DNA of 32,609 bases from an uncultured Armatimonadota bacterium (GTDB taxonomy: Bacteria > Armatimonadota > Fimbriimonadia > Fimbriimonadales > Fimbriimonadaceae), in contig CAILEM010000100.1 in the NCBI GenBank assembly GCA_903833215.1, positions 1 through 32,609 of the forward strand, given 5' to 3'. This document shows, piece after piece, positions 2,803-32,177 of the stretch. Under the pieces are notes generated by a model. That model was not told the origin of the DNA. It searched no databases and saw nothing but the letters and a program-made list of their open reading frames with translations. Position numbers and translations under genes: made by a program. Within the stretch, counting starts at the first letter, position 1. Each line of letters begins with the position of its first letter.

Positions 2803-4824
2803 ATGACAAATCCCAAAAGTTCTTTTCGTCCGCCCGCCGTTCCGTTGATCACGCACGATCCTTATTTCTGTGTTTGGTCCACGAGTGATACTTTGAATGG
2901 AGGGGTTACGAAGCATTGGACGGGATCCGAACAACCGCTTAATAGCCTGGTTCGGGTTGATGGAGAGACCTTTCGATTGATGGGTGCCGGTCCGGTGGAA
3001 CTGCCGGCAATGAATCAGACCAATCTCGTGGTGACACCCACGCGAACCCTTTACACTTTCAAAAACCAGACGGTCGAGGTTCAGCTGAGCTTCATCTCTC
3101 CGATCCTCGCAGATGATATCGATGTTTTGGCGCGACCTGTGACCTACGTGACTTGGGACATCAAGTCGATTGACGGAAACCGTCATCAGATTTCGGTGTA
3201 TTTCGATGCGAGTGGCTTACTTACTGTGGATAAGCCCGAACAGCTCGTTTCGGGAGAAGTGGTCGCTATGGACGGCCTAAACTCAGCCCGCGTTGGCTGC
3301 ACCGACCAGGCGGTGCTCAATCGGAGCGGCGACGATCATCGGATCGATTGGGGGCACCTGTACCTGGCAGGCGCTGCCGACGATAGCTCGGTTGCATATG
3401 TCCCAAGTGAGCAAGGGCTCTCTTCGTTCGTCGAACTCGGGCTCCTTCCAGACTCCGCAAACTCCAATATCGGGCCGGCGGGTGAAGGCTGGGCGTTGGC
3501 AGCTACTCTTTCCTTTGGAGAAGTTGGAGTTCAAGGTGCAAGCCGACGATTGATGGTGGCCTATGATGACAAGTACTCCATCCAGTACCTAGGTGAAAAC
3601 CTCAAACCCTATTGGAGAAAAGGAGGCTGGGAAGCTGCCGATCTGCTGCAAGCTGCCAACGCCGAATTCGAAAGCCTAAGAGCACGATGTGAGGCCTTTG
3701 ATGCTGAGATTGCTTCGGATTTGGAACTGGCCGGGGGATCTGACTATGCGTTTCTTGGAGCGCTTGCCTATCGACAGAGCTTTGCCGCGCAAAAGGTTGC
3801 CGCCGGGCTCGACGGGAGTCCTCTCATGTTTTCAAAGGAGAACTTCAGCAACGGTTGTATCGCAACTGTCGACGTTCTCTATCCGGCTGCGCCACTACTC
3901 CTTTTGCTCAGCCCAACTCTGATGAAGGCATCTCTGACCCCCATACTTGACTACGCGGCATCGTCGCGTTGGACTTTCCCATTTGCGCCACACGACCTAG
4001 GACAGTATCCGCTGGCTAATGGGCAGGTGTATGGGGGAGGAGAGAAGACCGAAGATGACCAGATGCCAGTTGAGGAATCTGGGAATATGCTGATCTTGCT
4101 AGCTGCGCTCGCAAAGATCGAAGGCAATGCCGATTTCAGTGAGAAATACTGGCCCGAGATCAGTAAGTGGGCGGATTACCTCGTGAAACAAGGGTTTGAT
4201 CCTGAGTTTCAGCTATGCACTGACGATTTCGCTGGCCACTTGGCTCACAACGTAAACCTTTCCGCCAAGGCGATTGAGGCGTTAGGAGGGTATGCCTACC
4301 TCTGTGCCATATCGGGGCGGAACGAAGAGGCGGCGACGGTTCGAGTTCTTGCCGAGCAATATGCGGCTCGTTGGGTTGTCGAAGCATCCGCTGGCGACCA
4401 CTACCGACTCGCCTTCGACAAAGAAGATTCTTGGAGCCAAAAGTACAACCTTGTTTGGGATCGATTGCTTAACTTCAGGTTGTTCCCTGAGAGTGTCGTG
4501 CGGACCGAGATGGATTACTACCTCACCAAACAGAACGAGTACGGCCTCCCGCTTGATAACCGCAAGGACTACACGAAACTTGACTGGATCGTCTGGACGG
4601 CGACGTTGACCGGCGAGAGATCGGACTTCGACGCTTTGATACAACCGATCGTCAAGTTCCTAAACGACACCCCCGACCGAATCCCGATGACCGACTGGTA
4701 CGGCACCGTTGCGCCGAACAAAGTCGGTTTTCAGGCCCGCTCTGTGGTCGGGGGTGTCTTCATCAAGCTTCTCGAAAACGAGGAAATTTGGCGGAAGTAC
4801 GCTGGCAGATTTTCTGCCAGGTAA
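2803..4824 (+). CDS. Glutaminase-type protein (DUF4964/DUF5127/DUF4965/DUF1793)
   Basis: A 673-residue protein with the architecture usually annotated as a glutaminase (GtaA-like). The N-terminus (PLITHDPYFCVWS...) is the DUF4964-type segment. A beta-rich DUF5127-like region follows, then an alpha-barrel region of DUF4965/DUF1793 type with the strongly conserved FPFAPHDLGQYP (about 387-398), MPVEESGNML (about 420-430) and CTDDFAGHLAHNVNLSAKA. Family members are often secreted, but no signal peptide is visible here, so this copy is probably cytoplasmic or its true N-terminus was missed. Known members hydrolyse glutamine to glutamate, while many relatives have unproven substrates. The ATG at 2803 has no strong ribosome site. 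The DNA glycosylase gene starts 21 bases downstream and may be co-transcribed. Confidence 0.85.
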   Translation: MTNPKSSFRPPAVPLITHDPYFCVWSTSDTLNGGVTKHWTGSEQPLNSLVRVDGETFRLMGAGPVELPAMNQTNLVVTPTRTLYTFKNQTVEVQLSFISPILADDIDVLARPVTYVTWDIKSIDGNRHQISVYFDASGLLTVDKPEQLVSGEVVAMDGLNSARVGCTDQAVLNRSGDDHRIDWGHLYLAGAADDSSVAYVPSEQGLSSFVELGLLPDSANSNIGPAGEGWALAATLSFGEVGVQGASRRLMVAYDDKYSIQYLGENLKPYWRKGGWEAADLLQAANAEFESLRARCEAFDAEIASDLELAGGSDYAFLGALAYRQSFAAQKVAAGLDGSPLMFSKENFSNGCIATVDVLYPAAPLLLLLSPTLMKASLTPILDYAASSRWTFPFAPHDLGQYPLANGQVYGGGEKTEDDQMPVEESGNMLILLAALAKIEGNADFSEKYWPEISKWADYLVKQGFDPEFQLCTDDFAGHLAHNVNLSAKAIEALGGYAYLCAISGRNEEAATVRVLAEQYAARWVVEASAGDHYRLAFDKEDSWSQKYNLVWDRLLNFRLFPESVVRTEMDYYLTKQNEYGLPLDNRKDYTKLDWIVWTATLTGERSDFDALIQPIVKFLNDTPDRIPMTDWYGTVAPNKVGFQARSVVGGVFIKLLENEEIWRKYAGRFSAR

Positions 4825-4845
4825 GGCCGACCATAATGGTCTGAC

Positions 4846-5682
4846 ATGCCCGAATTGCCCGAAGTCGAAACCGTTCGCCGAGTACTATCACGCGTCTTGC
4901 TAGGCAAGAAGATCGTGTCGGCAGAGTTTCCTGCTGACACAATCGTCCAGTCGAAACTGCCCGAAGGGAGTCTTCTCTCGGCGAGCTTGGGTGCTACCGT
5001 CACGAACGTTGGCAGGAAAGGGAAGTATTGGTGGCTGGAACTTGATCGCAAGCCGTGGGTCTTTGGGCATCTTGGCATGGCAGGCTGGATTCGCGAAATT
5101 GGGCAAGATTCGATTCGCCTTCGAGAACACGGAAACGCCCCATTTGACGACGAGAATGGGCGACCTCGCTTCCTAAAAATGATGCTGGAAGCCGAAGATG
5201 GGGGGCGTGTCGTAATGACTGACGGGCGCCGATTGGCTCGGCTATGGCTGGCCGCCGATTCGGCTTCGGGACTTCCCAAATTAGGTCCTGACATGCTGCA
5301 TGAACCTTGGTCTGCCGAGGATCTAGCCAAGCGCTTGGCAGGGAGAAGTGCGCCCGTCAAGGCCCTCCTGCTTGATCAAACATTATTCTGCGGGGTCGGT
5401 AATTGGATCGCTGATGAGGTCCTTTACCAAGCCGGAATTTCGCCTCGGCGCCCCGCTGGAGAGTTGTCGCTTGAGGAGTTGGGGCGACTCATGGCATCGC
5501 TTTCAGTGATTCTCTCTCTTGCGGTAGAGGTTGGCGCTGACTCCGGGAAATATCCGAACACGTGGCTGTTCAACAGCCGTTGGGGCGGTGCCAAGGGGCA
5601 AGAAACGCTTGACGGCGAGGCAATCATACGAGAGACGGTCGGCGGAAGAACTACCGCTTGGGTCCCAACTCGGCAGGTTTAG
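4846..5682 (+). CDS. mutM: Formamidopyrimidine-DNA glycosylase, plant-type zincless finger
   Basis: Base-excision repair glycosylase/AP lyase of 278 residues. The start is fixed by the processed N-terminus MPELPEVET, with catalytic Pro2 and Glu3. The beta-clamp Lys near 60 lies in RKGKYWWLEL, followed by HLGMAGW. The H2TH region is at about 175-200 (LLLDQ..FCGVGNWIADEVLYQ). Bacterial Fpg ends in a four-cysteine zinc finger; this protein has no C-terminal CxxC pairs. It ends instead in VGGRTTAWVPTRQV, with the DNA-contacting Arg at 268. That ending and the stretch VEVGADSGKYPNTWLFN match, from memory, plant FPG proteins (VEVDADSSQFPSNWIF, GGRTTAYVPELQ). It should act on oxidised purines, but substrate range may differ from E. 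coli MutM. It lies 21 bases after the glutaminase-type gene. Confidence 0.92.
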   Translation: MPELPEVETVRRVLSRVLLGKKIVSAEFPADTIVQSKLPEGSLLSASLGATVTNVGRKGKYWWLELDRKPWVFGHLGMAGWIREIGQDSIRLREHGNAPFDDENGRPRFLKMMLEAEDGGRVVMTDGRRLARLWLAADSASGLPKLGPDMLHEPWSAEDLAKRLAGRSAPVKALLLDQTLFCGVGNWIADEVLYQAGISPRRPAGELSLEELGRLMASLSVILSLAVEVGADSGKYPNTWLFNSRWGGAKGQETLDGEAIIRETVGGRTTAWVPTRQV

Positions 5683-8398: not shown

Positions 8399-9796
8399 GT
8401 GGATAGCCGTCACCCCAATAACTCCCAAAAAGGCTTCTGGTTAAAAGTTGCCGTGTGTGCAACAGCCTTGGTTGTGGTCGCGTGCTGGGTGGCATTGCAG
8501 CCCTCATTCAAACCTGCTTCACTGGAAGAGGTCCGGGCTTTGCTTCCGGCCGATCTGCTGAAAGAGCCTGCGGTAGATAAGGCTGCTCAGATCCGATTTG
8601 CTGCGCTGGTCAAGCTAATTCCCTCGATTGATGAACGTCAGATCGAAGAGATATGTGATGTGAAGGGCCCCATACCTCAGAGGTATGAAAAGTCACTTCA
8701 GTTTTGGCACAGCCATCAAGATGTTGACTCGATGGTGTTCAATTTGCTCGGAGAAGGACCGATCCAGTGGCCATCTGTACCGACGAATGGTCTCGACCAA
8801 CTATCGCTCCTTGAACCTATCGACCGGTTTTCCAGGCTCGCGACTTCAAGCGCTTTCCTGTTTGCCTCAATGGGTGACTTCATGCGAAGCGCCCGTATGC
8901 TTGGTTTAGCCGAACGACTAGGGCGAGGCTTGATGGGTGCTGGCGGTGATCTTCTCCAGTATTCGACTGCCGCTAGGATTCGAATCGCGACAGCCAAGGC
9001 GGTCACAGAGATTGTTGGGAATTCAAAGTTTCCATCCTCGGCGTGTGCGATGGTGTTGGCTGAGAATCTCCCTGCCCCAGAAGTCGACGAGGCGCTGGTC
9101 GACGGCATAAGGGAAGACTTTCAAAAAAAGCAGTTACGTTGGCTGCCGGATCCAACAAGAAATTTGGAATCTGCGGGATCACAGATTCAGGGTTCCAGCA
9201 TCCCGATGAGGTTTTGCGAGCCCGGATCAGGCGGATATGATGCGCTTGAAACGACGCGGATTTTTGCCAAAGTTGTGCCAGTGTCAATCGCCAATGCAAA
9301 GGTCTCATGGTCCAAATTCGATCAATCGGGAGATCAATTGGTCAAAAAGGAAACGAAGGATTTGCCTCAAAGGAGTCCTCAATCGGGCCCAGGTGGTGGT
9401 CGAAGCGCGTTCAACGGCTTGCGTTACGAGATCTCCATGCGGTTGACGCGAAATAGTATCGGTCGCGAGCTGATTCAGACTCTGGAGCACTCGGGGGAAT
9501 CTCCTGTTCTGATGTCTTGCGAATGGCGAACAGTCCACGATGTGGCGCGAGCCCTGCTTGCTGCAAGAATCTATCGTGCGAGTCACGGCGGAAAAGTCCC
9601 TTCTTCCTCCGCGGGGCTCGTTCCGAATTTGGGAATTTGGCCGCAAGATCCATTTAGCGGGAAGCCAATGATCTACAACGCAAAGGACGAAGTCGTGTAC
9701 AGCACGGGCAAGGACTTATCCGATGGCGGCGGCAAAGCCCTCGGAATCTCGATCGATGATTCAGACATTGGCGTCTCACTGAAACTGAAGCCGTAG
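8399..9796 (+). CDS. Membrane-anchored protein of unknown function
   Basis: A 465-residue protein, family not recognised. The GTG start gives a short basic N-terminus and one membrane segment (about 15-34, VAVCATALVVVACWVAL), leaving a large extracytoplasmic domain. The middle is helix-rich and contains FSRLATSSAFLFASMGDFMRSARMLGLAERLG, a pattern typical of repeat-like helical scaffolds. The C-terminal 80 residues (ALLAARIYRASHGGKVPSSS, LVPNLGIWPQDPFSGKPMIY, then VVYSTGKDLSDGGG) follow the pattern of pseudopilin-like endings common in Planctomycetes and Verrucomicrobia (helix, HG..P, LVP, DPFxGKPxxY, YSxGxDxxDGGG). It stands alone between convergent neighbours. A role in envelope processes is only inferred. 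Confidence 0.75.
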   Translation: MDSRHPNNSQKGFWLKVAVCATALVVVACWVALQPSFKPASLEEVRALLPADLLKEPAVDKAAQIRFAALVKLIPSIDERQIEEICDVKGPIPQRYEKSLQFWHSHQDVDSMVFNLLGEGPIQWPSVPTNGLDQLSLLEPIDRFSRLATSSAFLFASMGDFMRSARMLGLAERLGRGLMGAGGDLLQYSTAARIRIATAKAVTEIVGNSKFPSSACAMVLAENLPAPEVDEALVDGIREDFQKKQLRWLPDPTRNLESAGSQIQGSSIPMRFCEPGSGGYDALETTRIFAKVVPVSIANAKVSWSKFDQSGDQLVKKETKDLPQRSPQSGPGGGRSAFNGLRYEISMRLTRNSIGRELIQTLEHSGESPVLMSCEWRTVHDVARALLAARIYRASHGGKVPSSSAGLVPNLGIWPQDPFSGKPMIYNAKDEVVYSTGKDLSDGGGKALGISIDDSDIGVSLKLKP

Positions 9797-11255: not shown

Positions 11256-13292
11256 TTGACTAATCGCACTCTGGATTCAAGCGCACCTTTATCGAGGTTC
11301 TTTCGTCTTAAGGACATGTCGTTGCTTGTTTCGTTTTTGCTGCTGTCGGTTCAGTCCCCACGGGTGACGATTTCGTTGTCGCCGATGCCCGCACCGGCTG
11401 CGATTCGGGCATTTTCTACAGCTTGCGGAAGACGATTGGCCGTTACTCCCGCACTGGCGGATGAGGTCCTGTTTCTGCGACTCAAGGATGCGTCGGTGGA
11501 GGGTGCGTTGTCTCATATCGCGGAAGTGCTCTGTGCGAAATGGGTTCGTCATTCGAACGGAACGTCCTGGTTGGAACCCAATCCTGAGGCACAAAAGAAC
11601 ATAGAAAATGCGAATGCAGCCGAGGATGCCCACCGACTAAGCAACTCGCTGAAGTACCTGCAAAACCGACTTTCCCAACAGCCAGAGCAGCTAGATAAAA
11701 AGGCGGTTGACGCCTATGTCCAAAAGAAGTTAGCTCAGGACCAGCGAATGAGCGATGCGGAGGCCAGGAAGAATTATTCCCGCGTCGTAATCGGAGCTCC
11801 CGCTAACCAAGGTTCCCCCGCATGGCGTGCGATGGCGCGACTAGTGCTCCAGATTGACCCGAAGGTGCTGCTTGCCATACCTGCCGATGGACGGGAAGTT
11901 TGGGCTGAGAACCCTACTCCGATGCAGCACGGGTTTTCTGAAACGCAAAAAGCAGCGCTACAGATTTATCGTCAAGAACTTGGCATCCTCGATTCGTCGT
12001 TGGAAGCAAATCGGGTGAAGTTGGTATGCCGCAAGGTAACTCTCGCCGAGGAATTCGTGGCGGAATTTGGGGTTACCGGTCCTGACGGCAAAGCGGTTGA
12101 TAGGTCCGTTGGGCGCCTAAATAGTTATGCCAACCAAATAGAGCCGCCTTCTTCCGAGGCAGATGCCAAAGCATCAAAGCCGGGCGAGATTCCCCTGCAG
12201 CCGACGGCCGAAGTCGTAGAGGCGCGCAAAGCCCTATCGCTGTTTTACGAAGGCGCCGATCGCAAAGCGATTTATGCCAAGTGGCGACCGAAGCTCCTAG
12301 ATCCAGTTCATTTTGAGCCGACAACTTGGGACCTTGGCGAAGAGCTGATGATGGTTGCGGAAAGTCTTGATCGCAACTTGGTGGGTACCGTAAATGATGC
12401 ATCTGCCGCCTCTTGGGATCTACTCACCAACCTCACTGCAACTCAGGTCTTGTCAAAGAACCGTGAGAGCCTGATTCCAACAGATGATGACTGGCTCGTT
12501 TTTCGAAGTCACGAGCAGAAACATCGGATATCCAGGTCGAAAGCCAGAGCGCTCCTCGCCAATTGCGTCAGACACGGCGGAATGACCGTGGATTTGGCGG
12601 CGGAGTGGGCAGCGCAGTCCTCAGACCCATATGCCTTCCAGAACTGGCTATGCAACTACGTTTGCCTGCTTGGCACTTCTGGCGGATTGTACAGTGATTT
12701 GTCCACGATCATGAATGACTATGCGTTGCGGCTGTGGGCTGCCATCGGTTCGTCTGGGATCGAGCATTTGCGAAACGGGGGAGTCGTTCAACTATCACGA
12801 TTGAGCCCCGCAGCGAAGGCGCAGATTTCCACCATGTTATATGACGACGAGTTGCAGGATGGGCGTGACCCCACCGACGCGCTGCCGAACGGAATTATTG
12901 ATGGGACGCTCAAGATGAGTATCGAAGAGCTTCCGGTCATGTATGCCTGGGCTAGTGCCGATGGCCCGCCTGTGGCACCTGTCGGGCTTGAGGCCAAAGA
13001 GTTTGGAACCTTGTTGGCCAAGGGCGAGCCGTGGAAGCAAGTTCCCCCCAGCGCCTATCAACGTTACGATCGGTTTCGAGTCGGAGTGGTTCGCAAATAC
13101 AAACTGAACCTCCTCCTCGAACCCGGTGACATCCCGATGACCGTTTCGCTGCCAGAAACCCTGTTTAATCCAGCAAGCAAGGAACTGTCCGAGTTGCCGC
13201 CTGCCTTCAAATCTGAAGTGGAAAAAGCCAGGTTAGCCGCGCTGGCCAAGCCGGTCGAGGTGCCGAAGCAAAGAGTGATCCCACCTCGTTGA
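11256..13292 (+). CDS. Secreted protein of unknown function with STN-like N-terminal segment
   Basis: A 678-residue protein with no recognised full-length family. A TTG at 11256 gives an N-region with Arg/Lys (RFFRLKD) before a hydrophobic core (SLLVSFLLLSV), as in a Sec signal; the ATG at 11316 starts directly at that core and would lack the basic part, so the earlier start is kept, though its ribosome site is poor. Residues about 45-100 (RLAVTPALADEVLFLRLKDASVEGALSHIAE) resemble the STN module of secretins and TonB receptors. The rest is a long mixed region without visible catalytic motif or further membrane segments. It is probably periplasmic. The membrane protein that follows could be co-transcribed, but 134 bases separate them. 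Confidence 0.7.
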   Translation: MTNRTLDSSAPLSRFFRLKDMSLLVSFLLLSVQSPRVTISLSPMPAPAAIRAFSTACGRRLAVTPALADEVLFLRLKDASVEGALSHIAEVLCAKWVRHSNGTSWLEPNPEAQKNIENANAAEDAHRLSNSLKYLQNRLSQQPEQLDKKAVDAYVQKKLAQDQRMSDAEARKNYSRVVIGAPANQGSPAWRAMARLVLQIDPKVLLAIPADGREVWAENPTPMQHGFSETQKAALQIYRQELGILDSSLEANRVKLVCRKVTLAEEFVAEFGVTGPDGKAVDRSVGRLNSYANQIEPPSSEADAKASKPGEIPLQPTAEVVEARKALSLFYEGADRKAIYAKWRPKLLDPVHFEPTTWDLGEELMMVAESLDRNLVGTVNDASAASWDLLTNLTATQVLSKNRESLIPTDDDWLVFRSHEQKHRISRSKARALLANCVRHGGMTVDLAAEWAAQSSDPYAFQNWLCNYVCLLGTSGGLYSDLSTIMNDYALRLWAAIGSSGIEHLRNGGVVQLSRLSPAAKAQISTMLYDDELQDGRDPTDALPNGIIDGTLKMSIEELPVMYAWASADGPPVAPVGLEAKEFGTLLAKGEPWKQVPPSAYQRYDRFRVGVVRKYKLNLLLEPGDIPMTVSLPETLFNPASKELSELPPAFKSEVEKARLAALAKPVEVPKQRVIPPR

Positions 13293-27316: not shown

Positions 27317-27361
27317 TTGGCACCCCCGACATGAATCGAACATGCTACCCACTGCTTAGAA
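27317..27361 (-). repeat. 3' half of tRNA-Arg(TCT), probable attachment site
   Basis: Read on the minus strand: anticodon loop CTTCTAA (anticodon TCT), right anticodon stem GCAGT, variable loop GGGTA, T-arm GCATG-TTCGATT-CATGT with full pairing, acceptor strand CGGGGGT, discriminator G and encoded CCA. It parallels the 3' half of E. coli argU. The 5' half is missing: the bases beyond the anticodon loop do not pair and show no D-arm. A tRNA 3' half starting at the anticodon loop is exactly what tyrosine-integrase elements leave at their far end. By this geometry the element lies at higher coordinates. Confidence 0.7.
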
Positions 27362-27929
27362 GGGAAAAGAAATCAGGTTCAATTACCTGCCGCTGAGTGC
27401 ACTGCCGTACGTGGCCGTACCAGACTGTGCGTGGTGTAAGAGAGACTTAAGAGAGACCGTGGCAAACCCTGGAAATAAGGCATTCCACCTGGCATAAAAA
27501 AGTCGAACTCAAGATGTCGATTCCCGCGCCGGATTTGAACCACGAGCACAGTCTTAGTCAGTTCTAGTGCTGGAGCACACTTACCCCCACTTGTAGCTCC
27601 TGGCTAGACAGCAAGGCATCGAAGTCGACCGCGACCTGAACTCCGAGCCAGCATAAAAGGTTCTAGGATTTGACACTGGTCATCCGTGACGTCAGTTTAG
27701 TGAGGGTGCCGTACCATCGACTCAAAGACGATCTAGACTTCCTAATCGAATCAACGCACAGAACTCAAATCGATAAGCACAGTGCGAGTTCGGGAAAACT
27801 CCCTTGGCGCACTTCCACATTTACAGATGCATTTCTACAATTGTTGGCTTTCGGCTTTCCCTTCACTCCAAACCGATCTTTGTTACAGTCCCCCCCCCAA
27901 TGCAATATCAAGTAAAATAATTACTGATG
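27362..27929. other. Gap with tRNA-like fragment and C9 tract, no gene seen
   Basis: About 570 bases without a supportable gene. A minus-strand stretch at about 27525-27560 reads GGTTCAAATCCGGC then GCGGGAA, resembling a T-loop and acceptor strand, but its stems pair only partly. The repeat AGAGAGAC occurs twice near 27440-27460. A run of nine C lies at 27890-27898. An 81-codon open frame at 27670-27915 shows no coding character. Confidence 0.4.
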
Positions 27930-28565
27930 CTACTTCAGAAACAATTCAGCAGCATCTAGCGAGTGGATCTCGGTGAGAACGCCTGTCTTGGACAAAACGA
28001 ACAGAGACGGCGTGCCACGTACCCCTATAGCTTTCGCCAGTCTCACTTCTCGAAGCACCTGCGATTCAAACGTGGCAGCCTGAGGTAAGCCAACCAGTCT
28101 TTTCAGTCCCATTCGGGCCAGATCTGTGTTCAAAGAGCTAGTCGAAAGGGAAACTTTATCTGACATCAAGTGCTCAGCCATAGCTTCACCCTGACCGAAT
28201 CTTCGAGCAATAGAGAAGCAAACCGCTGCAGCAAAAGCGTCTGGATGAACCGGCAAAGGATAGTTTACGAGTACCCAACGGATTTCGGGGTGAATCCTTC
28301 GGAAATCCTTAGCGCTCGGCCACAGTTGCCTGCAGGGCGAACACTGGAAGTCAAGAAACTCAACGATTATCGGCTGTCCTGGTTTGTATCCAACCTCCCT
28401 TTCGACGGAAAGAGCAGCTTCATGAGATTTGATTTCCCCTGGAAGTTGAGATCGAAGAACAGCGAAGTTAATTGTACGCAAAATGACGCAGCCACCTGCT
28501 GCCAATATGACCCCAATCAAACAGCGTCTGAACAGTTTCAAATCGTCGATGCGGATTCTGAGCAT
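27930..28565 (-). CDS. Membrane-anchored DsbA-like thiol-disulfide oxidoreductase
   Basis: A 211-residue protein with an N-terminal anchor or signal (CLIGVILAAGGCVILRTINFAVL, 15-37) and an extracytoplasmic thioredoxin-fold domain. The active site is FLDFQCSPCRQLWP (Cys75 and Cys78), followed by a helical insertion with FAAAVCFSIARRFGQGEAMAEHLM and the cis-Pro loop GVRGTPSLFVL near 185. This layout matches DsbA/thioredoxin_4-type proteins that form or shuffle disulfides in exported proteins. It faces away from a secreted eight-cysteine protein, with 107 bases between start codons; a substrate relationship is an attractive inference. Stop is at 27930, next to the C9 tract. Whether it oxidises or reduces cannot be told. 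Confidence 0.82.
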   Translation of the reverse strand: MLRIRIDDLKLFRRCLIGVILAAGGCVILRTINFAVLRSQLPGEIKSHEAALSVEREVGYKPGQPIIVEFLDFQCSPCRQLWPSAKDFRRIHPEIRWVLVNYPLPVHPDAFAAAVCFSIARRFGQGEAMAEHLMSDKVSLSTSSLNTDLARMGLKRLVGLPQAATFESQVLREVRLAKAIGVRGTPSLFVLSKTGVLTEIHSLDAAELFLK

Positions 28566-28625
28566 GGCTTTAAAATAAACTTTTCGCTAGTTGAGGGTTT
28601 TTGCTAAATAAAATCGACAAATCCC

Positions 28626-28654
28626 TTGCTAAAATTCTGGCGATGTCATATTCT
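28626..28654 (+). promoter_or_regulatory. Candidate sigma-70-type promoter for the cysteine-rich protein
   Basis: TTGCTA (28626-28631) and TATTCT (28649-28654) are separated by 17 bases; each matches four of six consensus bases. Transcription would start about 12 bases before the ATG at 28673. The gap is strongly AT-rich. Confidence 0.4.
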
Positions 28655-28672
28655 ACTGATGAGTGTACTATT

Positions 28673-28993
28673 ATGAAACTAAAAGTTGTCTTATTTTGTG
28701 CTTCGATGGCGGGTTCAGTAATCTCTTTGGCAGGTAGTCTTGGACCTTGCGGTGATTGGGTAAGCGGATCGTACCATATTGAAACCTCGTGCCAAATCGC
28801 GGGAGTAAATGAGAATTGCAGTGGTGCCCCATTTGGATACAACTCTAACTTCGAAGTGCAGCGAGGCGATACTATCAACGGTTGGACCGGGGGCTACACA
28901 TACACTTGCACTGGCTGGTCTCGCGATGGAAACTGTTGCACGAATGTGCAGAATCCGCTGAATCCCTGTCCGAGAAGCACTTGCTCTCCGTAA
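28673..28993 (+). CDS. Secreted cysteine-rich small protein, unknown
   Basis: A 106-residue protein. The signal peptide (MKLKVVLFCASMAGSVISLAG) leaves a mature part of about 85 residues with eight cysteines (26, 40, 49, 79, 88, 89, 99, 104), an even number suited to four disulfides. It is rich in Gly, Asn, Ser and aromatic residues (GGYTYTCTGWSRDGNCCTN) and ends NPCPRSTCSP. No known toxin, bacteriocin or enzyme family is recognised. The frame extends to 28601, but only the ATG at 28673 gives a sensible signal peptide. It is transcribed away from the DsbA-like gene and directly precedes the prepilin-type gene (16 bases to that gene's GTG). Confidence 0.65.
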   Translation: MKLKVVLFCASMAGSVISLAGSLGPCGDWVSGSYHIETSCQIAGVNENCSGAPFGYNSNFEVQRGDTINGWTGGYTYTCTGWSRDGNCCTNVQNPLNPCPRSTCSP

Positions 28994-29009
28994 GGTATTG
29001 AGGCTAAAT

Positions 29010-29735
29010 GTGACCAAATATCTCTGCCAAAAGTGGACTCAGACAGGTCAATATTCTTGTCTTGTAGATTACGAACCACGGTTGCGTCGTCTAAACGGGT
29101 TTACGTTGGTAGAACTCTTGACCGTAATCGGGGTCCTAGGTGTGTTGGCTGCGATCATCTACCCTGCGTTCAGCGCAACGCGGGGCAAGGCCTACCAAAC
29201 TCAAGACGCTTCAAATCTCCGGTCCTTTGGTGTAGCCCGGGCTCTCTACGAGGAGGACCATGGGCCAATCATCGACACCGTAGTTCTAGTGACAAATAAA
29301 ATCGTCCCGTTGCAATGCGTAGTCAGCGCCAGCGATCCGACACTTGTAGGCTACGCTAACATATTCCGAAGAACAGATGGAAACCCAGGGCAAGTTACGG
29401 TTTACAAGGACTCGTATCTGCCGCTGTCGTCTGCGGGGTCTCCGTACGCGTCCCGCCTGATACTTTCCAGCAGCAATCCAGGTTGGCTTGTTGCCTTCTC
29501 AGGATCGCATGATTATCTGAATGGCACCTCACTCGGCTACGATGGCCCTGAGACACCGATACTGCAAGGAACATATCTAAGGCTGATGTTGGACACAAGC
29601 GTGGTTGTGCGGCATTGCCACGTTAGGCACCATTACCCAAGTCCTCAAATTGAAAATTTTCAAAACCCGTTGTGGTTTTTTACCGACGACGATGATGCTG
29701 CAGAGCCCGGTCATTTAGCCACCTCCGCTGAATGA
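29010..29735 (+). CDS. Prepilin-type protein with cysteine-containing C-terminal domain
   Basis: The segment RRLNGFTLVELLTVIGVLGVLAAI is a type IV pilin/pseudopilin N-terminus: Gly before the cleavage point, Phe at +1, Glu at +5, then the hydrophobic helix. After it come a short helix (NLRSFGVARALYEEDHG) and a 160-residue domain with GYANIFRR, YKDSYLPLS, GWLVAFSGS, GTYLRLMLDTSVVVRH and LWFFTDDDDAAEPG, typical of the small H-X9-DG-like pseudopilins of Armatimonadota. GTG 29010 (GAGG six bases before) would give a long 34-residue leader; TTG 29082 would give the usual short leader MRRLNG but has no ribosome site. Its domain is repeated in the gene at 30577. Confidence 0.72.
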   Translation: MTKYLCQKWTQTGQYSCLVDYEPRLRRLNGFTLVELLTVIGVLGVLAAIIYPAFSATRGKAYQTQDASNLRSFGVARALYEEDHGPIIDTVVLVTNKIVPLQCVVSASDPTLVGYANIFRRTDGNPGQVTVYKDSYLPLSSAGSPYASRLILSSSNPGWLVAFSGSHDYLNGTSLGYDGPETPILQGTYLRLMLDTSVVVRHCHVRHHYPSPQIENFQNPLWFFTDDDDAAEPGHLATSAE

Positions 29736-29754
29736 GACCTAGATTCCAAGGAAG

Positions 29755-30192
29755 ATGAAAACCATGGACGCCCCACTGGCAGTTAAAAAATCACTTATCA
29801 CACGGTATCCTTTGCTGATAGCTGGGCTGATCACAGGGCCGCTAGGAAGGCTTGCATCTTGTGGAGTTGGGTGTAGTTTAGGCTATCTGCACTCAAACGT
29901 CTTTCGCGCCACTTCGATTTTCGAATTTGGATACATATTCACTCTGTTCCTAGTGCCCTTTTCTAAGGAGGATACCCTGTCGCCGATCCGATTCATAGTA
30001 GGGTGCATACTGGGCAGCTATTTGATCGTTCTCACGGGAAATGTGCTGACACTGTTCGTAAGTGCAAGCCATGCTAACCTCTATCCCTATCGATTTTGGT
30101 ATGACCCGCTCCTGACTTCAATCACCTGTGGCACTAGTGCTGTTCTTTATTGCTCTGGTCGACAAGTCGCTCGCTCATTCCTACCAAAATGA
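29755..30192 (+). CDS. Small polytopic membrane protein, unknown (1)
   Basis: A 145-residue protein with three or four membrane segments (LLIAGLITGPLGRLASCGVGCSLG, IFEFGYIFTLFLVPF, FIVGCILGSYLIVLTGNVLTLFVSA, SITCGTSAVLYC) and a basic tail. Five cysteines lie in or near membrane segments, including CGVGC. No family is recognised. It starts 19 bases after the prepilin gene and its TGA overlaps the next ATG as ATGA, so it belongs to the same operon. The surrounding DNA is more AT-rich than the left part of the window. Confidence 0.6.
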   Translation: MKTMDAPLAVKKSLITRYPLLIAGLITGPLGRLASCGVGCSLGYLHSNVFRATSIFEFGYIFTLFLVPFSKEDTLSPIRFIVGCILGSYLIVLTGNVLTLFVSASHANLYPYRFWYDPLLTSITCGTSAVLYCSGRQVARSFLPK

Positions 30193-30587
30193 ACGCCAGA
30201 CTTCTATCTTTGTCTCTGCTGCTACAGATAGCGTTTAGTGTCGCTGCTTATGTTATATATAAGTCAAGCGGAGGTACTTTGCTAAGCGAGATTAGTTTCC
30301 TGCAGCCGAGTTGGCCGTCGCTGCTCGGAATTTGCTGTGTTGGCACTGTCACTTGCTTTATTGCTACAGAGAAGATTAGGTTTGGAGGTGCCGTGCTGTG
30401 GGCATGCGCTGCGGGAAGCGGTATTGCAGTGTCAAAGATTGTTACCATCCCGGCGCTCTACTCGACAATGCCTATAAGAAGCATTTTTACTGATCTTTTT
30501 CAACTTACAGTTCGCATCATTGCTTGTTGTATCGCTTTGTCCTTAATCGACAGAAATCCTGGTGGGGTAACAAGAAATGAATCCTAA
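30189..30587 (+). CDS. Small polytopic membrane protein, unknown (2)
   Basis: A 132-residue protein with about four membrane segments (LLSLSLLLQIAFSVAAYVIY, LLGICCVGTVTCFIA, VLWACAAGSGIAVSKIVTI, LTVRIIACCIALSLI). It has six cysteines, in the pairs CC, C and CC. It could be a distant relative of the preceding protein by size, cysteine content and helix number, though sequence similarity is not evident by eye. ATG 30189 overlaps the preceding stop (ATGA), and its own stop overlaps the next start by 11 bases. No function assigned. Confidence 0.58.
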   Translation: MNARLLSLSLLLQIAFSVAAYVIYKSSGGTLLSEISFLQPSWPSLLGICCVGTVTCFIATEKIRFGGAVLWACAAGSGIAVSKIVTIPALYSTMPIRSIFTDLFQLTVRIIACCIALSLIDRNPGGVTRNES

Positions 30588-31212
30588 TGTTGTTAGCCAA
30601 GACTCCCGGCTCGCAGCCGGTCTTGTGATGTTCGCAGGGGCTTTTATGGTATCAGCGGTGGTCAGAACGAACGATCAATTCGACCGCAACACGGATATGA
30701 ACAATCTTAAGCAGATCGGGCAGGCCCAGCAACTATATTCCGAGGAATGGGGTGACGTCTATGCTACGAGACCGCTGGTTCTCTCCGGTGCAATTTCTAG
30801 GCAGATGCTGGTCAGTCCGAGTGATCGGACAAAGCATGGTTATGCCAACCTCTTTCGATCAATGACCAAATCGCCGTTGGATCCGGAGGCCTATTATCGC
30901 GACTCGTACCTTCCGATTAGTGCCGTAATGAATCCGTTAGGCATCAGTAGAGTAACCTCGACCAAAGACGCAGGGTGGCTTGTCGCATTTTCAGGAAGTG
31001 AACCTGAGCAGGCAAAGACGCGCCAGCCGTGCTTCTCAGGTACATTCTTACGGCTCCTGAAGGACGGGGCCGTCGTTGTGAAGAAACACCACATTTCCTA
31101 TGACTTTCCCAATAAAACCTATGGACCGTTCCAAGAAGTGTCATGGTGGTTCACGGATGACTTCACTGTCGCTGTGCCCGGATTCAAGCCACCAGCAGAC
31201 TTCAAAAACTAA
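30577..31212 (+). CDS. Pseudopilin paralogue lacking the prepilin motif
   Basis: A 211-residue protein whose C-terminal 150 residues parallel the prepilin-type protein at 29010: NLKQIGQAQQLYSEEWG, GYANLFRS, YRDSYLPIS, GWLVAFSGS, GTFLRLLKDGAVVVKKHH and WWFTDDFTVAVPG occur in the same order. The N-terminus, however, is MNPNVVSQDSRLAAGLVMFAGAFMVSAVV, a plain signal anchor with no G-FTLVE cleavage site and no Glu at +5. So a prepilin peptidase should not process it. It may be fixed in the inner membrane as a partner or regulator of the pilin form. Start overlaps the previous gene by 11 bases. Confidence 0.68.
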   Translation: MNPNVVSQDSRLAAGLVMFAGAFMVSAVVRTNDQFDRNTDMNNLKQIGQAQQLYSEEWGDVYATRPLVLSGAISRQMLVSPSDRTKHGYANLFRSMTKSPLDPEAYYRDSYLPISAVMNPLGISRVTSTKDAGWLVAFSGSEPEQAKTRQPCFSGTFLRLLKDGAVVVKKHHISYDFPNKTYGPFQEVSWWFTDDFTVAVPGFKPPADFKN

Positions 31213-31439: not shown

Positions 31440-31823
31440 CGCAGCCAATGGTCTAGAGCAGTGAAGCAAACCGGTGGTGCGGGAATGGAAGCCGATAGCG
31501 CCATTCCTGCACGTTTCGCAAAGCGAGGATTACACATAATGTCCGACTCGCAGGCCCAATTCGGTCCGAGTTTGCGGTGCGCCTTTCGCCCGTGCGATAG
31601 CGTCGTCGAACGGGTGGCAGAACAATGGAGCCAACAACTGATGAACGCTCCCAATACTCGCTTCAGGATCGCGGCTCTTCAATGCTCCGAAGACCAATTC
31701 GGACCGAACAGTTGCGCAAACGGAGAGTTCGTCTGGGTGATGTGATCGAAAACGTTCTAGGACAGGTGGAACTCGACCACGGAGGTAGGAGATGCAAAGG
31801 TTCGCATCAAGCTGATAGATCAC
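31440..31823 (-). pseudogene. VapC-type PIN-domain toxin, frameshifted
   Basis: GTG 31823 starts MIYQLDANLCISYLRG, the VapC opening with the first metal-binding Asp, followed by VCATVRSELVFGALKS with the conserved Glu and FCHPFDDAIARA near 75. After that the frame goes wrong. A shifted frame continues ANSDRIGPASRTLCVILALR, matching the IGPxDxxIAAxAL part of the family but without the catalytic Asp residues, and a further frame gives LDHWLR as in the usual end. The nuclease is therefore very probably dead. Its start overlaps the antitoxin stop by 17 bases. Confidence 0.65.
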
Positions 31824-32046
31824 CTAGCGGCTCTCGAACGTCGAATTCGCCTTGCGGATGGCGTACAAATGACTCGTCCGATATGGCTCCGAATGTCGCG
31901 GCGAAATACCCTTCGGGCCAGCTAGTGGCATTGGTGCTGGATGCGCTGATGACAACTTCGACGCGCTCGCCAATCCTAAAAGGCAGGTGGTCCAGATGCA
32001 GCATCCCGCCTAACTCAATCGTCGCTTCCGCTCGATACGCCTCCAC
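31807..32046 (-). CDS. VapB-like antitoxin
   Basis: A 79-residue protein from GTG 32046 (EAYRAEATIELGGMLHLDHL). The N-terminal beta-rich part (LPFRIGERVEVVIS) resembles an AbrB/SpoVT-like or related DNA-binding and dimerisation arm. The C-terminal half, WPEGYFAATFGAISDESFVR then HPQGEFDVREPL, is the toxin-neutralising tail seen next to PIN-domain toxins in cyanobacteria and other groups. It seems intact although its toxin is broken. The longer open frame up to 32142 adds residues foreign to the family. Confidence 0.65.
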   Translation of the reverse strand: MEAYRAEATIELGGMLHLDHLPFRIGERVEVVISASSTNATSWPEGYFAATFGAISDESFVRHPQGEFDVREPLGDLSA

Positions 32047-32177
32047 AACGACATTATACGACACGGTTGGCGCCGATTCCCGTAGAAGCAAGTGCGTACT
32101 TGAACGCACCGTGGGGAACCGAGTCACTGATCTCGCTGACAATACAGACCCGGCCCGCGGGGCTTGAGGAGGACAAA

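Follow-up and report, generated by a model that had tools for sequence, protein, structure and literature searches.

A recurring three-gene module in Fimbriimonadales: secreted cysteine-rich protein, pilin-like protein and small membrane protein

Related systems and the gene cassette

The closest described parallel to the genes reported here is type IVb pilus-dependent secretion, in which the minor pilin TcpB hooks the secreted protein TcpF, encoded in the TCP operon, and elongation and retraction of the pilus bring about its secretion (PMC9565799). In TcpF/TcpB, as in CofJ/CofB, a secreted passenger that reaches the periplasm first is co-encoded with its minor pilin carrier, and the present genes would share this layout. 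The genes of both pairs sit in a full pilus operon, whereas the module described below contains one pilin and a small transmembrane (TM) protein, with the core machinery encoded elsewhere. Its putative passenger is small and cysteine-rich and has no detectable sequence relationship to either pair; the profile of its family (A5, see below) found no relationship to the TcpF/CofJ structures and no solved structure at E ≤ 1, and we treat the likeness as analogy, not membership. The DUF1559 (PF07596) and related prepilin-motif proteins, which are expanded in Armatimonadota and Planctomycetes, have the GFTLxE N-terminus in common with the pilins of the module, but the latter possess their own C-terminal G-Y-RL-DGSV region and fixed Cys and TM neighbours. 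The Verru_Chthon proteins (TIGR02596 and TIGR02599) likewise belong to a cassette that encodes prepilin-type proteins and comes from a phylum outside the Proteobacteria, but the matches to them were weak (E = 0.07–0.13, far below the cut-off). DsbA, VKOR-DsbA, TlpA and MauE, whose Pfam domains were found at four of our loci, are general enzymes, whereas here one of them is placed beside one specific substrate-like gene.

The stretch of DNA analysed here (the window; 32,609 nt) makes up the entire contig C100, which belongs to a genome of 6.2 Mb. The original prediction placed six genes in it, the last three overlapping, and the open reading frames were confirmed at those positions (Table 1). 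Genes 4 and 5 overlap by 4 nt (ATGA) and genes 5 and 6 by 11 nt, and the start of gene 3 is likely the GTG at 29010, with a TTG at 28998 as the alternative. A scan for promoters and terminators performed no better than on shuffled sequence.

Table 1. Features of the cassette and its left flank in the window
Feature	Position	Strand	Evidence and remarks
tRNA-Arg(TCT) 3' fragment, attR-like	27317..27363	-	47 bp, 98% identical to the intact tRNA at its 3' end
DsbA-like membrane-anchored thioredoxin-fold protein (optional)	27930..28565	-	Pfam DSBA 2.9e-06, Thioredoxin_4 5.5e-04; divergent from the Cys gene
Secreted Cys protein (core part 1)	28673..28993	+	Signal peptide, 8 mature Cys, C-terminal CPxSTCSP; A5 profile 3.6e-17 in own genome
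Prepilin-like protein, gene 3 (core part 2)	29010..29735	+	GFTLVELL; PF07963, TIGR02532; A1 profile 8.5e-72
Small multi-pass membrane protein, gene 4 (core part 3)	29755..30192	+	Homologue directly behind homologous pilin in genome G004; size and topology recurring in 39/52 loci
Second small multi-pass membrane protein, gene 5 (optional)	30189..30587	+	Position, size and topology only
Second pilin-family protein, gene 6 (optional)	30577..31212	+	A1 profile 6.6e-66, full-length domain; no prepilin cleavage motif

Gene 3 carries the prepilin motif and hydrophobic helix of type IV pilin-like proteins and matches PF07963 (7.4e-06) and TIGR02532 (3.6e-06). Gene 6 is its paralogue (alignment E = 8e-31, 37% aligned identity) and keeps the C-terminal pilin domain, but neither a GFTLxE motif nor a PF07963 match was found in it; the anticipated prepilin pair consists of one protein with the prepilin motif and a pilin-family paralogue without the cleavage motif. 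The window copy is a module with its second half duplicated. The profile built for this pilin family, A1, split its matches cleanly into about 50 full-length members and hundreds that cover the N-terminal pilin helix only. Among 13 A1 members compared with Pfam, 12 matched PF07963 only and the 13th matched nothing; PF07596 was matched by none of the 13, window genes included, and by the pilin of locus L202 at 1.9e-7. A search of viral contigs with gene 3 gave no relatives. A search of a named genome collection gave three only; the close relatives from this collection are Fimbriimonadaceae MAGs. The structure model of the pilin (6 sequences; mean pLDDT 51) predicts a helix at 9–60; it was judged too weak to use, and the fold search with it returned noise only, with no informative fold match.

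The homologue of gene 4 lies at positions 9146–9586 of locus L024, and no homologue of gene 5 was detectable in the genus; locus L023 also carries two small multi-pass genes. Across loci the TM proteins keep their size and topology, yet are hardly alignable. In the original prediction cysteines recur in nearly every member of the cassette, membrane proteins included. The relatives of the membrane proteins have 0–7 Cys, which are not conserved, and Cys as a family feature of the membrane proteins was rejected. Neither the Cys nor the TM family matched Pfam, NCBIfam, PHROGs or PADLOC above threshold, sub-threshold matches being the only ones obtained. Matches of one Cys protein to Shiga-toxin models were single and weak (E = 0.004–0.2) and were judged to be due to chance, and a structure model built from 4 Cys-protein sequences (pLDDT 34) was likewise too weak for use.

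Recurrence and distribution of the three-gene core

The neighbours of the full-length family pilins (n = 52) show that the linkage goes beyond chance, the core being found again in dozens of genomes. A Cys gene adjoins upstream in 35/52, a TM gene adjoins in 39/52 and both are present in 28/52, leaving 17 pilins with no recognisable Cys gene; for other GFTLxE pilins from the same genomes (n = 38), the corresponding counts were 1/38, 1/38 and 0/38. The A5 profile was built from 17 proteins found beside family pilins, so that the HMM-based Cys count is partly circular. The converse search, which used A5 alone, is less so: it gave 43 matches in 113 genomes, many of them outside the training set, and 36 of the 43 lie beside a full-length family pilin and 6 beside a pilin gene that is partial, split or more divergent; the remaining one (L137) runs into a contig end. 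Two gene orders were observed, Cys-pilin-TM (mostly 8 Cys) and Cys-TM-pilin (12–15 Cys). Genes farther upstream are unrelated between loci, indicating that the linkage is confined to the module. The distance matrices of the pilin and Cys proteins are correlated (Mantel r = 0.64, n = 35; 0.40 within the 8-Cys class, n = 29), to which shared ancestry contributes.

The Cys protein, the pilin-like protein and the small 3–4-TM protein hence constitute a real, recurring module, a conserved unit of three genes. The original prediction asked whether all six genes stay together; this three-gene core does so, and the DsbA, second TM and second pilin genes are optional. A fixed six-gene unit was rejected from the neighbour counts and the unrelated upstream genes. 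The module is undescribed in the databases and papers searched, the latter being open-access papers, in which we found no account of it.

Within Armatimonadota, about 50 full-length pilin-family loci belong to the order Fimbriimonadales and two more to other families of the phylum. The type strain of Fimbriimonas ginsengisoli, Gsoil 348, is among the genomes of the order that have the module, which lies near 2180260–2181700 on the minus strand of its chromosome. Matches to the Cys family came from 26 genomes of the order and from genome G142 among the 291 Armatimonadota genomes searched, and genome G214 was added by a strong full-length pilin match. In G142 (locus L202) a TlpA-like protein is followed by the Cys protein (ending STCPGNTCLPPEQ), the pilin and a 4-TM protein; in G214 (locus L204) the order is MauE-domain protein, 12-Cys protein, pilin and 3-TM protein. 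The Cys protein of L204, which A5 did not match at E ≤ 10, was assigned from its position, Cys pattern and alignment. One genome of 3 Mb (G106) contains seven pilin-family loci at unrelated sites. At positions 3830–5037 of locus L038 and at L099 (family f2), a sigma-factor-like gene that is possibly a dedicated regulator lies directly upstream of Cys-rich, TM and pilin genes.

Thiol-redox neighbours and the mobile context

The DsbA-like protein of the window is assigned to that family by an N-terminal hydrophobic anchor, the active-site segment EFLDFQCSPC (CSPC) and a DSBA match above the cut-off. At four loci, including the window, the slot just 5' of the Cys gene is taken by a thiol-redox protein, a different one in each case. 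The other three are a divergently oriented VKOR-DsbA protein 103 bp from the Cys gene in L031 (VKOR, 3e-16; Thioredoxin_4, 2.6e-8), an AhpC-TSA/TlpA-like protein 31 bp upstream in L202, and a MauE protein (5.5e-15) overlapping the Cys gene by 4 nt in L204. Different redox families in one slot point to a link by function rather than descent, although the loci are few and the window was picked for this very feature. A CxxC membrane protein with no Pfam match lies 2.1 kb away in L032, and a membrane ORF that is thioredoxin-like and contains Cys lies upstream in L100. Since a redox gene adjoins in a small minority of loci, the enzyme is optional, not required; the cassette's supposed disulfide enzyme of its own is found beside the Cys gene in these four loci but is not a fixed part. 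The gene linkage and the redox neighbours fit the larger expectation that a disulfide-rich product is exported by a route of its own; a six-gene unit with Cys-rich membrane proteins found no support.

The proposal that the cassette sits in accessory DNA beside an att-like tRNA fragment is supported by the match of 46 of 47 bases to the 3' end of tRNA-Arg(TCT). Neither ARAGORN nor Rfam recognised a tRNA in the window, and in the absence of an Rfam family the fragment rests on the DNA match. The intact tRNA-Arg(TCT) occupies positions 1905–1980 of contig C135 of the same genome (G000), separate from the contig of the cassette, which is consistent with the cassette probably lying in a genomic island that was split by assembly. 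By geometry, the inserted element would lie rightward of 27363, with the cassette inside it; its other end may be positions 1–1903 of C135, which lie 3' of the intact tRNA. The stretches read contained no integrase. By eye, PIN-domain-like and antitoxin-like ORFs just behind the cassette (31530–32142, minus strand) resemble a broken toxin-antitoxin pair, and what looks like the end of an IS transposase gene lies at the contig end (32500–32609), which may account for the assembly break.

A possible export route and its alternatives

By analogy with the pairs described above, we propose, at a probability of roughly 45%, that the Cys protein is oxidized in the periplasm and that a type IV filament or a T2SS-like pseudopilus then exports or displays it via its cognate minor pilin. 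In favour of this reading are the linkage of the Cys, pilin and TM genes amid otherwise unrelated flanks, the correlated pilin and Cys distances, purifying selection on the Cys domain and mostly even Cys numbers (both given below), the four redox proteins in one slot, the secretion machinery in the genome and the TcpF/TcpB precedent. The Cys protein would cross the inner membrane by its signal peptide (Sec). In the periplasm its 6–14 Cys would be joined in pairs, either by general Dsb enzymes or by the adjoining redox enzyme where one is encoded. The prepilin would be processed by a shared prepilin peptidase and enter the filament or pseudopilus, the core machinery of which is encoded elsewhere; the genome of the window encodes 7 secretins and has T2SSF/PilC homologues at 5 genes, so that a lone pilin could be served by shared machinery. 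The pilin would then bind the folded Cys protein and either take it through a secretin or keep it at the filament tip, and the 3–4-TM protein may be an inner-membrane partner that loads or stabilizes this pair. Points against export are the poor structure models, the small minority of loci with an adjoining redox gene, the missing prepilin motif of gene 6 and the 17 pilins with no recognisable Cys gene, together with the fast divergence of the TM proteins, which is unlike that of a conserved assembly factor.

The same divergence is often seen for immunity proteins, and the TM protein could just as well be one, which leads to the main rival explanation, an antagonism module in which the Cys protein would be a disulfide-stapled, bacteriocin-like toxin, the 3–4-TM protein its immunity protein and the pilin a means of export or contact delivery. 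Several diverse copies per genome (7 in G106, 5 in G026), insertion at many unrelated sites and the att-like tRNA fragment adjoining the window copy are also in its favour. We nevertheless consider it unlikely, because no PADLOC anti-phage defence model was matched and the closest pair compared (L071 and L072) shows 21 synonymous versus 1 nonsynonymous change in the Cys domain, 15 versus 17 in the leader and 54 versus 18 in the pilin. This indicates that the Cys domain is conserved as a functional unit, under strong purifying, not diversifying, selection, behind a leader that is loosely constrained. Next in probability, and improbable as well, is retention of the Cys protein on the pilus tip as an attachment subunit that is not released. 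F. ginsengisoli, a non-motile, fimbriate bacterium with 79 PulG-like genes, has pili that are thought to serve attachment (PMC4072686), which would suit such an adhesin. Multiple paralogous pairs per genome would likewise fit different binding specificities, but searches with the Cys family turned up nothing resembling an adhesin or lectin; release and display of the Cys protein are indistinguishable by sequence. It is very improbable that the Cys protein binds metal or is an extracellular redox carrier kept reduced by the redox enzymes, since despite the CxxC near the domain N-terminus in many members and the ability of TlpA-like and MauE proteins to serve reducing pathways, even numbers of mature Cys dominate (34/43 Cys-family proteins, which are related sequences and not independent), VKOR-DsbA fusions are typical of oxidation, and the Cys protein is exported.

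Returning to pilin-dependent export or display, a broader proposal appears doubtful to us, namely that the module is a mobile, self-contained and minimal pilin-based system for disulfide-stapled proteins, with interchangeable redox enzymes and one pilin per passenger, which would represent an undescribed type IV filament-dependent secretion that evolved in Armatimonadota. If the mechanism is true, pilus-dependent secretion would reach beyond enteric pathogens and their type IVb pili, and a carrier of their own would be at hand for small disulfide-rich proteins that have no known function. Fimbriimonas genomes contain many pilin-like genes with no assigned role, such as the PulG-like genes of F. 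ginsengisoli (PMC4072686); one pilin subfamily is now tied to specific secreted and membrane partners, which makes its role testable in the cultured type strain.

Two further arrangements were observed in these genomes. Locus L026 (10228–12417) encodes a separate 10-Cys secreted protein (11463–11804) along with a short pilin of its own and a thioredoxin-like protein that carries GQCGSC, and two copies of the module lie nearby. A recurrent set of a DsbA-like protein, a small secreted 8–10-Cys protein, a secreted protein of about 350 aa, a protein of about 10 TM segments and a MauE/DoxX-like protein was found at L195 (458–4304; contig C19 of the genome of the window) and L194 (2387–6333; genome G018), and is possibly another uncharacterised disulfide-rich secretion or peptide system.
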